The position numbers and the translations under genes are program-made. From Halorubrum vacuolatum (lineage in GTDB: Archaea; Halobacteriota; Halobacteria; Halobacteriales; Haloferacaceae), in contig NZ_FZNQ01000003.1 in assembly GCF_900188065.1 (NCBI RefSeq), positions 62,001-126,000 on the forward strand: a stretch of DNA of 64,000 nucleotides, given 5' to 3'. The stretch's first letter is position 1. Each line of letters begins with the position of its first letter. This document shows, piece after piece, positions 43,788 through 48,484 of the stretch. The notes under the pieces were generated by a model, which saw nothing but the letters and a program-made list of their open reading frames with translations, was not told the DNA's origin and ran no database searches.

Positions 43788-46016
43788 ATGAGCCTGCCCG
43801 AGACGGACCACGAGCTCGTCGTCGCGGAGCTCGACCGGGAGCCGACGCCGGCCGAGGTCGCGCTGTTCGAAAACCTCTGGAGTGAACACTGCGCGTACCG
43901 CTCCTCGCGCCCGCTGCTATCGGCGTTCGAGAGCGAGGGCGACGCCGTCGTCATCGGTCCCGGCGACGACGCGGCCGTGCTGGCGCTGCCCACCCCCGAG
44001 GCGGCCGATCGGCCCGCCGCCGACCGCGACGCCGACGACTACGGGGACGTCTACGTCACCTTCGGGATCGAGAGCCACAACCACCCCTCCTACGTCGACC
44101 CCTTCGACGGCGCGGCGACGGGCGTCGGCGGCATCGTCCGCGATACGATGTCGATGGGCGCCTATCCCATCGCGCTGCTCGACTCGCTGTATTTCGGTTC
44201 CTTCGAGCGCGAGCACTCTCAGTACCTCCTTGAGGGCGTCGTCGAGGGGATCTCCCACTACGGCAACTGTATCGGCGTCCCGACCGTCGGGGGGAGCGTC
44301 TCGTTTCATCCGGGCTATGAGGGCAACCCGCTCGTCAACGTCGCCTGCGTCGGGTTGACGGACGCGGAGCGGCTCGTCACCGCGGAGGCACAGGCCGCGG
44401 GTAACGCGCTCGTGCTCGTCGGCAACGCGACCGGCCGGGACGGCCTCGGCGGGGCCTCCTTCGCGAGCGAGGACCTCGCGGAGGATGCCGAAACCGAGGA
44501 CCGTCCCGCGGTACAGGTCGGCGACCCCTACGCCGAAAAACGGCTGATCGAGTGCAACGAGGCGCTCCTCGATGAGGACCTCGTCCGCTCCGCCCGCGAC
44601 CTCGGCGCGGCCGGGCTCGGCGGGGCCTCCTCCGAGCTGGTCGCGAAGGGCGGCTTCGGCGCGGCGATCGACCTCGACGCGGTCCACCAGCGCGAACCGA
44701 ACATGAACGCGCTCGAGATCCTGCTCGCGGAAAGCCAGGAGCGGATGTGTTATGAGGTCGCCCCCGACGACGTGGACCGCGTCCGCGAGTTGGCCGAGCG
44801 GTTCGACCTCGGCTGTTCGGTCATCGGCGAGGTGACGACGGGGAACTACGTCTGCACGTTCGACGGCGAGATCGTCGTCGACGTCGACGCCGACTTCCTC
44901 GCGGAGGGTGCGCCGATGAACGACCTCGACGCGACGGAGCCGTCGACCCCCGAGCGCGACCTCCCCGAGCCGTCGCTCGCGGACGCCTTCGAGGCGGTCG
45001 TCTCGTCGCCCTCGACGGCGAGCAAGCGCTGGGTCTACCGGCAGTACGACCACGAGGTCGGCACGCGAACCGCGATGAAACCCGGCGACGACGCGGCGAT
45101 CGTCGCGATCCGGGAGGCGGCGATGACGGCGATGAACGGGGAAGCCGGTGCGGACGAACTCGACGCCTTCGACGGCGACGGCGTCGGCCTCGCGCTGTCC
45201 GCGGGCGCGAACCCCCACTGGACGAGCGTCGACCCCTACGAGGGGGCCCGCGCCGTGGCGATCGAGAACGCGACGAACCTCGCGGCGAAGGGGGCGGTCC
45301 CGCTCGCCGCCGTCGACTGTCTCAACGGGGGCAACCCGGAGAAGCCGGACGTCTACGGCGGCTTCTCGGGTATCGTCGATGGGCTCGCGGACGCCTGTTC
45401 GGCGCTCTCTGTCCCCGTCGTCGGCGGCAACGTCTCGCTGTACAACGACAGCGTCGCCGGCCCAATCCCGCCGACGCCGACGCTCGCGCTGATCGGCACG
45501 AAACGCGGATACGACGCCCCGCCGGCGGCCCTCGATGGCGACCGTGCCGACGACTCGACCCTACTCCTCGTCGGTGGCTCCGGCGACGCGCTCGGCGGCT
45601 CGACGTACCTCGCCGAGTGTGGCGGGAGCGACGCGTTCCCCGCGCTCCCCGCGGACCCTGCGGCGACCGTCGCGACGCTCGCGCGGATCGCCCGCCACGA
45701 GGCCACGCTCGCGACCCACGACGTGAGCGACGGCGGGGTGGCCGTCGCGCTCGCGGAGCTTCTCACGCCGACCGCGGGCGCGACGGTCTCGCTTCCCGAC
45801 CACCTCGCGGCCTTCGAGGAGACGCCCGGCCGGCTCGTCGTCCAGACGACCGACCCGGAGGCGGTCGCCGACCTCGCGGGCGATCTCCCGACGTTCGAAC
45901 TCGGCTCCGTCACCGACGACGGGACCCTTCGACTCGACGTGGGCGGAGCGTCGCTCTCGACCACCGCCGACGAGGTGCGCACGCTCCGCGACGTGCTTGC
46001 GCGCGAGTTGGAGTGA
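43788..46016 (+). CDS. purL: Phosphoribosylformylglycinamidine synthase subunit II
   Basis: The 742-residue small-type PurL works with PurQ and PurS. Visible: [23 protein letters not shown] at the N-terminus, [26 protein letters not shown] (substrate and catalytic His), [36 protein letters not shown], and the second FGAM-synthase half with [21 protein letters not shown] and [13 protein letters not shown]. It catalyses ATP-dependent amidination of FGAR. The 220-bp downstream gap holds a 31-bp tandem repeat. Confidence 0.95.
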
Positions 46017-46045: not shown

Positions 46046-46138
46046 CCATCCGTCCGTCCCGTCCACTTCGTCCGTCCCATCCGTCCGTCCCGTCCACTTC
46101 GTCCGTCCCATTCGTCCGTTCCATCCATTTCGCCATCC
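46046..46138. repeat. 31-bp tandem repeat (about three copies) after purL
   Basis: The unit begins CCATCCGTCCGTCCCGTCCA and continues through CTTCGTCCGTC. Copies start at 46046, 46077 and 46108 (the last degenerate), built on the 5-mer CGTCC. One strand is almost pyrimidine only. It starts 30 bp after the purL stop and has no coding potential. Confidence 0.85.
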
Positions 46139-46168
46139 GTTCCCGCCGCGTGCGACCGAACGACATCC

Positions 46169-46186
46169 TTTTAGGCGCTCCTAAAA
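46169..46186. promoter_or_regulatory. DtxR/IdeR-like palindromic operator TTTTAGGCGCTCCTAAAA
   Basis: The arms TTTTAGG and CCTAAAA are perfect complements with 4 bp between, so the core is TTAGG-N4-CCTAA. That is the half-site spacing of DtxR-family iron/manganese repressors. It overlaps the likely TATA (TAAAATATC, 46182-46190) of the ABC ATPase gene, an arrangement fit for repression. Confidence 0.6.
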
Positions 46187-46237
46187 TATCATGGGCCAAC
46201 GACGGGACGTCGGCGTGACCGACGCCCGTACTCACCG

Positions 46238-47365
46238 ATGGCGCAAACGGACACCTCCGGAACGATCCGACGGCAGGACGTAGCGAGCGGGTTCGCGGCC
46301 TCCTCAGCCGACGAAACCGTTCTCACGATGGACCTCGTCAGCAAGCGCTTCGGCTCGGAGACGGTCGTCGAGAACGTCTCGCTCGAGGTCAAACGCGGCG
46401 AGCTGTTGACCTTCTTGGGTCCCTCCGGCTGCGGAAAGACGACGACGCTGCGGATGATCGCGGGCCTCGAGGAGCCGAGCGAGGGCGTCATCACGCTCGG
46501 CGGCGAGCCCGTCGCCGACGGCGACCGCTTCGTCTCCCCCGAGCGCCGTGACGCCGGGATCGTCTTTCAGAACTTCGCGCTGTTTCCCCACCTCACCGTC
46601 AGGGAGAACATCGCGTTCGGGCTCGACGGCGACGACGCGGCCATCGAGGCGCGCGTCGATGAGCTGCTCGACCTCGTCGATATGCCCGAACACGGCGAGA
46701 AGAAGCCGGAACAGCTCTCCGGCGGGCAGAAACAACGGGTGGCGCTCGCGCGCTCGCTCGCACCCGAACCGGAGGTGTTGCTGCTGGACGAACCCTTCTC
46801 CAACCTCGACGTTCGGCTCCGCGTCGAGATGCGCGAGGAGGTGCGTCGAATCTTAAAGGAAGCCGGCGTCACCGCGGTGTCGGTCACCCACGATCAGGAG
46901 GAGGCGCTTTCGATCTCCGACCGCGTCGCCGTCATGCACGACGGGCGGCTCGAACAGATCGGCAGACCCGAGGAGGTGTTCGAACGGCCAGAATCCAAGT
47001 TCGTCGCCTCGTTCCTCGGCCGGGCGTCGTTCCTCACGGGCCACCTTCGGGAGGGTAAAGTCGAGACGGGCGTCGGCCGGTTCAACGCGGCCGCCCTTGA
47101 GGGGTACAACACCGTCTATGACGGCACGCCCGTCGACGTGCTCGTCCGTCCGGACGATCTCCGGGCGACGCCGACCGACCCCGAGGTCGCCGACGGCGTC
47201 GTCGTCTCCAGACAGTACGTCGGCCCGTCGTTCATCTACCGGGTCGAACTCGACTCCGGCGAAGTCGTCCACTGCCTCCACAACCACGTCGAGGAGTTCT
47301 CGCTCGACCAGCCGGTTGGCGTCGACCTCGTCGCGGACCACCCGCTCGCCTGGTATCCGCGGTAG
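46238..47365 (+). CDS. ABC transporter ATPase (Fe3+/polyamine type, TOBE domain), no adjacent permease
   Basis: The 375-residue protein has GPSGCGKTTTLRMIAGLEEP (Walker A), RRDAGIVFQNFALFPHLTVRENIAFGL (Q-loop), QLSGGQKQRVALARSL (signature), LLLDEPFSNLD (Walker B), VTHDQEEALSISD (H-loop) and a C-terminal TOBE region (LVRPDDLRATPTD). Length and order fit FbpC/PotA-like importers. No permease or binding protein is next to it. The DtxR-like operator argues for iron uptake, but the substrate is inferred. Confidence 0.9.
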   Translation: MAQTDTSGTIRRQDVASGFAASSADETVLTMDLVSKRFGSETVVENVSLEVKRGELLTFLGPSGCGKTTTLRMIAGLEEPSEGVITLGGEPVADGDRFVSPERRDAGIVFQNFALFPHLTVRENIAFGLDGDDAAIEARVDELLDLVDMPEHGEKKPEQLSGGQKQRVALARSLAPEPEVLLLDEPFSNLDVRLRVEMREEVRRILKEAGVTAVSVTHDQEEALSISDRVAVMHDGRLEQIGRPEEVFERPESKFVASFLGRASFLTGHLREGKVETGVGRFNAAALEGYNTVYDGTPVDVLVRPDDLRATPTDPEVADGVVVSRQYVGPSFIYRVELDSGEVVHCLHNHVEEFSLDQPVGVDLVADHPLAWYPR

Positions 47366-47506: not shown

Positions 47507-48484
47507 ATGATACTCGCGGCCACCGACGACCGGATCCGGTTCGTGACGCAGCCGGATCACGCGGCGCTCGCGGGACGGTTCGCCGAGGCGTGGGGCGGCG
47601 AGGCGGTCGACGCGCCGACCCCGAAGCCGGCGGTCCGGCTCGCGGTCCATGCGCACGACGACGGCTGGTGGCCCCGCGATCGCCGCCCGCGGCTCAAACC
47701 GGACGGCACGCCGTACGACTTCTATGAGATCCCGGCTGCACAGTGGATGCGACTGCAACGCCGCGGTGTCGATGCGGTCGCCCGCGCGGACCCCTACGCG
47801 GGGCTTCTGGTCTCGCTTCACGCCGCGGGACTTCGACGGCAACGGTACGGCCTCTCGCCGTCGTGGCCCGAGACGCCCCGCGCGTTTCGGGGGTTCGTGG
47901 AACGCGAGCAACGCCGACAGCGGTCGCTCGCGACCGCCCTACGCGAGGACGACACGGACGACCGTCTCTCCGTCGACGACAGTGCGCTAATAACCCATCT
48001 CCACGACGCCGGGGAGCCGCCGTCGGAGGTCTTCCCCGGAACCGCCCGCGATCCGCACCTCTGGCGGAACTATCGGCTGTTGAGCGCGCTCGATGCGCTC
48101 TCGCTTCGGATCTGTGCGACCCCGACGCGCATGGGTTCCAGTGTGGGGAGCTGGGACGGCGAGGAGCGCTGTGACGATGAGGGGAGCAACCGCGAGGGGC
48201 GTTCCGATGGGGCCCAAACCGATCCGGGTGCCGTCGAGGTCGCTCCGATCGAAATCCCCCACGTTCCGACGCGACCCGGCGAGCCGGACACGACGCTCTC
48301 GGCGACGCCGTGTTTCGGCGACTCCTGGCGGATCGATCCGTACCCGTTCGACCGTTCGCCGGTGACGGTCCACGTCCCCACGCGAACGGTCGATTCGACG
48401 TCGTTCCAGGACGAGCGGACGCTCTTCGACCGATATTATGCGGCGGAGATCGAGGAGATCACCGTGACGATGCGACCGGCGTGA
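47507..48484 (+). CDS. DUF3891 family protein
   Basis: The 325-residue protein opens MILAATDDRIRFVTQPDHAA, and its first part reads LAVHAHDDGWWPRDRRPRL and GLLVSLHAAGLRRQRYGL, the His/Asp-rich region conserved in DUF3891 proteins. These resemble HD-like hydrolases but their function is unknown. An acidic disordered insert lies at about 225-245. It has its own TATA and lies 22 bp or more beyond the repeat array. Confidence 0.85.
   Translation: MILAATDDRIRFVTQPDHAALAGRFAEAWGGEAVDAPTPKPAVRLAVHAHDDGWWPRDRRPRLKPDGTPYDFYEIPAAQWMRLQRRGVDAVARADPYAGLLVSLHAAGLRRQRYGLSPSWPETPRAFRGFVEREQRRQRSLATALREDDTDDRLSVDDSALITHLHDAGEPPSEVFPGTARDPHLWRNYRLLSALDALSLRICATPTRMGSSVGSWDGEERCDDEGSNREGRSDGAQTDPGAVEVAPIEIPHVPTRPGEPDTTLSATPCFGDSWRIDPYPFDRSPVTVHVPTRTVDSTSFQDERTLFDRYYAAEIEEITVTMRPA

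Follow-up and report, generated by a model that had tools for sequence, protein, structure and literature searches.

The window analysed here, a 64-kb stretch of the Halorubrum vacuolatum genome (C54:62001-126000), contains a stand-alone gene for an ABC ATPase whose promoter carries the palindrome TTTTAGGCGCTCCTAAAA: read directly from the window, this consists of two perfect 7-base arms with a 4-base spacer and ends 51 bases before the ATG of the ATPase gene (Table 1). Against the ferric equivalog model NF008513 the ATPase scores 287 bits with a cut-off of 496, which rules out filing it as an FbpC equivalog, and it reached the equivalog cut-off of none of the 25 models listed; hence we name it FbpC/PotA class and not FbpC. 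The gene upstream, purL, adjoins the ATPase in 30 of 30 ATPase loci examined, and the ATPase of the closest named relative found, Halorubrum amylolyticum (81% identical), likewise follows purL. From purL to the promoter, the intervening DNA (46046-46130) is filled with short imperfect direct repeats (CCGTCC / CACTTCGTCC). Directly downstream of the ATPase lies a gene for a DUF3891 protein (47507-48484), seen among the 30 ATPase loci only here, in G061 and in G062. No match to the permease family PF00528 was found anywhere in the window, as the sequence-only reading had already noted for the immediate neighbours of the ATPase; on C54 the nearest matches are at 46-47.6 kb, where the accompanying ATPase lies at 44.8 kb, and at 176.8 kb, where ATPases are likewise neighbours.

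Table 1. Features of the ATPase locus (window coordinates) and of the partner locus on contig C64.
Feature	Position	Strand	Basis or remark
purL, conserved upstream neighbour (context only)	43788..46016	+	TIGR01736 above its cut-off
Probable BRE of ATPase promoter, CGACA here, mostly CGATA in congeners	46161..46165	+	columns -10 to -6 before TTAGG
Predicted DtxR/IdeR-type operator, TTTTAGG-CGCT-CCTAAAA	46169..46186	.	left-arm TTTT probably TATA box
Predicted transcription start	46198..46198	+	conserved CA
Leader hairpin, bulged A at 46207	46202..46229	+	fold and covariation; between predicted start and ATG
ABC ATPase, TOBE_2 domain, FbpC/PotA class, stand-alone	46238..47365	+	profile matches
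Secreted FbpA-like binding protein	C64:100298-101464	-	relatives of solved iron proteins
FbpB-like permease, fused, two-domain	C64:98565-100178	-	PF00528 in two stretches

The pattern TTAGG-N4-CCTAA occurs a single time in the 64-kb window, at the palindrome, and only twice in the whole 3.48 Mb genome, the other exact copy lying on contig C64; the numbers expected genome-wide are 0.07 (order-2 Markov model of the window), 0.11 (order-1) and 0.94 (base composition alone). With one mismatch allowed, the shuffled window yields a mean of 0.13 matches and the genome four additional sites, which do not exceed the number predicted from the window shuffles and were given no weight; one of them (C55:8396) lies inside a permease gene. 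As a control we used the reversed pattern, restricted to exact matches because it is not neutral at one mismatch (45 matches in the genome vs 6 for the motif): summed over 22 congeners, the exact pattern occurs 234 times compared to 14 times for the control. A chance palindrome is ruled out by the shuffles, the Markov expectations, the congener counts and the recurrence at importer genes described below. The sequence-only reading had recognised the arrangement of DtxR/IdeR repressor sites, which holds given the perfect arms and the two exact copies genome-wide, and had named as a refuting outcome a pattern no commoner than chance and unrelated to iron genes; the congener counts and the sites at importer genes speak against such an outcome. 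The 14-bp pattern is the proposed consensus for one IdeR/DtxR dimer (PMC8464063): the ATPase promoter resembles known DtxR/IdeR operators in containing exactly this 14-mer, TTAGGNNNNCCTAA, but differs in that the full 19-bp two-dimer site TTAGGTTAGSCTAACCTAA is absent at the ATPase, with AATAT and not CCTAA after the 14-mer. The window's genome (G000) and congener G009 have two exact sites each, the other 21 congeners 5-16. Since two sites are present where most congeners have 5-16, the predicted DtxR-type regulon of the window's lineage is reduced.

The second exact site, TTAGGTTAACCTAA, is located at C64:101473, 8 bases ahead of the start of the binding-protein gene. All 28 solved matches listed for this protein (E up to 1e-5) are iron-binding or iron-transporter proteins, the best being 7w3w (4e-38), and the tyrosine pair is kept: YY at residues 276-277 aligns with YY of the solved proteins. 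The permease matches PF00528 in two stretches with both EAA loops present; no ATPase lies near it, and a converging gene follows beyond it. We compared all 35 permease and 53 ATPase matches of the genome by position: an ATPase lies close to every permease except at two loci, the one on C64 and a fragment where the 8.4 kb contig C70 ends, and among the seven best FbpC/PotA-class ATPases the window's alone has no permease nearby. The assembly comprises 72 contigs, so that linkage across contig ends is possible; each of the two loci is nevertheless far from the ends of a long contig. Thus, a lone ATPase and an ATPase-less iron permease share the only two exact operators of the genome, and are best read as one importer: we consider it very likely that the C54 ATPase and the C64 binding protein and permease belong together. 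The suggestion of the sequence-only reading that the ATPase serves an importer encoded elsewhere thereby gains a candidate: a genome-wide search of the kind it proposed places the only other exact copy of the pattern in front of this FbpA/FbpB-like pair, which has no ATPase.

In the genus, the region from -300 to +60 of the gene start was inspected for the site in 52 congener genomes, which are related, so that the counts are not independent. The ATPase is present in 51 of the 52 genomes, the permease in 51 and a binding protein of the C64 family in all 52, and the exact site occurs at 50/52 ATPase, 46/52 permease and 53/53 binding-protein copies; the exact reversed pattern is found at no ATPase, permease or binding-protein copy in any of these sets. 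Both ATPase misses (G022 and G052) are located inside a binding protein-permease-ATPase operon, and each of the six permease misses directly follows its binding protein: stand-alone ATPase copies carry the exact site in 50 of 50 cases, operonic copies in 0 of 2. In congeners with both genes on one long contig, permease and ATPase are usually about 300-540 kb apart, with exceptions in G009 (about 33 kb) and in a second set of G064 (about 10 kb), and the binding protein lies several kb from the permease in most congeners (for example 6 kb in G019). This second set of G064 (L273, C1:3000-22000) comprises another ATPase and permease, each with its own site, with the matching binding protein about 6 kb further on. 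At three further congener loci (L291, L256 and L352) permease and binding protein are found in an island with additional palindrome-preceded genes, often near a short DtxR-family gene; the island adjoins genes that we take to be SufB/SufC-like.

Across the wider order, ATPase and permease are each present in 130 of 146 genomes: 129 carry both and 15 neither, and the two exceptions are G077 (66% complete), which has the ATPase without the permease, and G182 (72% complete), which has the permease without the ATPase. Among genomes at least 90% complete and with at most 5% contamination, 114 have both, 8 neither and none is discordant; the Fisher p for co-occurrence is 1e-12, which is indicative, given that the genomes are related. 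Of the 129 systems with both genes, 84 form one operon, 7 are near each other but not in an operon and 38 are apart, either on a single contig with over 10 kb between them (21) or on different contigs (17), where distance is not defined. The operator was tested on samples of the 38 split and 84 operonic systems. Split ATPases outside the genus exhibit the exact site in 18 of 20 cases (16 of the 18 fetched for the test, plus loci L373 and L375), those of G098 and G034 being the ones without it, compared to 0/20 for operonic ATPases of the order. In the region ahead of the permease, taken to include any binding-protein gene there, the site was found in 19/20 split systems, the single exception running into a contig end, and in 18/19 intact operons. 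Thus, the predicted operator follows the split: the ATPase has an operator of its own almost exactly where it stands alone.

An intact operon is found in the outgroups L070-L072, of which Halegenticoccus (L070) exhibits the order purL, gap, binding protein, permease, ATPase, whilst two of these loci have no purL in reach. Ancestrally, binding protein, permease and ATPase probably formed a single operon under one operator, whose genes appear to have separated in several lineages, the stand-alone ATPase nearly always with its own operator. A simple history, drawn from one locus, would have the binding-protein and permease genes moving away from purL, with the ATPase remaining there together with an operator. 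In quickly built trees, which have long branches and include partial rows, the window's permease groups with that of G034, a member of another family, with full support and apart from 46 other split-type copies of the genus; its identity is 71 to 79% to permeases of other families and G187, and 52 to 56% to those of most congeners. The window's ATPase, in contrast, is nearest to those of the congeners. The foreign grouping of the permease and the congener-like ATPase together indicate that the binding protein and permease of the window's lineage were probably replaced by another family's version whilst the native ATPase was retained. In the old as in the new permeases, both EAA loops can be recognised.

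MsmX is a multitask ATPase in Bacillus, as is FhuC in Staphylococcus, and our ATPase could in a similar manner drive several importers that have none of their own: it is encoded alone, as MsmX and FhuC are encoded away from the permease they power, and in the window's lineage its partner is apparently an exchanged permease. Shared iron ATPases do exist (PMC10147376). In spite of this, we judge such a role highly improbable, as every other permease locus of the genome lies near an ATPase, save for the C70 permease at its contig end, whose neighbours are out of view; as one ATPase corresponds to one permease, with which it shares an operator type, unlike in the MsmX and FhuC systems; and as G022 and G052, which possess the complete operon, contain no stand-alone ATPase besides it. 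The same points weigh against the other possibility raised by the sequence-only reading, an ATPase shared between importers.

The genome contains two DtxR-family genes, one long with a FeoA domain and one short; either protein could be the binder of the operator. Among the 49 congeners with both the short gene and the permease, 37 have the two no more than 25 kb apart (of 51 congeners with the permease, G061 and G001 gave no short DtxR match), and in the window's genome the short gene is on a different contig from the permease. This proximity among syntenic relatives is suggestive only of a repressor function for the short gene. Both proteins score best with MntR models, though below cut-off, as would be expected if the site bound a manganese-type homologue (MntR/SirR-like) and the system sensed or carried manganese or another metal; the solved relatives of the binding protein are nevertheless iron proteins and the motif is the iron-type IdeR/DtxR consensus, and we regard a manganese system as very unlikely.

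An alignment of 50 promoters of the genus on the palindrome reveals how the site is embedded. The ten fixed letters of the palindrome core are invariant in 50/50 promoters whilst the spacer varies, the TTTT of the left arm is invariant, and ATA or GTA follows right behind the right arm. Four of the five BRE columns are invariant (CGA-N-A, with N mostly T), and a conserved CA is found 26-27 bases past the TTAGG start in 92-96% of the promoters. Published haloarchaeal promoter elements are a BRE (CGAAA), a TATA element (TTWT) and WW at -10 (PMC4983044). From a comparison of the aligned columns with these elements, the left arm of the operator is probably the TATA box, as anticipated by the sequence-only reading, which had the palindrome overlapping the TATA of this gene; the operator would then be built into the core promoter, and this position suggests repression by blocking TBP. 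Merely a promoter sequence that is symmetric by accident, for which the overlap of the arms with the AT-rich TATA and -10 elements of haloarchaeal promoters might be cited, has next to no chance of being the explanation, given the invariance of the ten letters around a variable spacer at stand-alone ATPases and the same letters at the binding-protein and permease genes.

The leader hairpin was assessed in an alignment (A1) of 49 of the 50 leaders, 48 of them distinct, with the extra G064 copy left out: 94.8% of cells pair, six of the ten pairs change on both sides (1.7 in shuffles), and pairing falls to 36-44% when the partner is slid by one to three columns. The folding energy is not unusual (z -1.46) and the hairpin has no match in Rfam, so the main support is covariation, not energy. 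A stem of at least 6 is found in 33/49 leaders vs about 17% of 420 control stretches, which is a weak comparison; outside the genus, nine leaders of 15 split ATPases exhibit, by eye, a CCGGC/GCCGG-type GC stem shortly before an ATG. The covariation could alternatively stem from a DNA inverted repeat bound by protein. That the structured leader adds control at the RNA level, for example of the ATPase:permease dosage or through iron sensing, is a doubtful proposition; if true, separation of the operon would have brought both operator and leader to the ATPase, needless in operonic copies.

The gene parts, the sites and how they are distributed, and the co-occurrence of the genes are all read from sequence, and from them we infer how the system may operate. 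The window's gene would provide the ATPase of a ferric-iron ABC importer whose binding protein and permease come from C64, each of the two transcription units having a TTAGG-N4-CCTAA operator in its own promoter. With iron plentiful, a metal-loaded DtxR-family dimer would probably sit on the operator and block TBP, given that in the ATPase promoter the left arm also serves as the predicted TATA box; with iron scarce, both units would be released and the importer parts would assemble for transport. We are confident, at the level of sequence, of a split ferric importer predicted to be co-regulated through a shared operator type.

In comparison to FbpABC, HitABC and FutABC, the likeness lies in an FbpA-like binding protein with a tyrosine pair, a two-domain permease with EAA loops and a MalK-type ATPase with a TOBE domain; unlike in these systems, the ATPase is encoded at a distance from binding protein and permease, each unit has its own operator, and the ATPase scores below the NF008513 cut-off. 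A haloarchaeal 'ferR' signal is reportedly to be found in Leyn and Rodionov 2015. A 'ferR regulon signal' is also mentioned upstream of fhu genes in Haloferax volcanii (PMC11349517). The literature searched, which did not extend to the regulon tables of Leyn and Rodionov 2015, makes no mention of this split importer. The system is of a known kind, a ferric ABC importer with a DtxR-type operator, whilst the scattering of its predictedly co-regulated genes, with the detached ATPase under an operator of its own, appears new as far as this literature shows. Haloarchaeal iron-uptake genes are still poorly known (PMC11349517, PMC7407949), and our findings provide a partner and a likely function for an ATPase which would otherwise be annotated as no more than a generic ABC protein. 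They further indicate that an importer operon has come apart in several haloarchaeal lineages with its regulation still joined, and would offer a natural test both of regulons replacing operons and of an ATPase accepting an exchanged permease.
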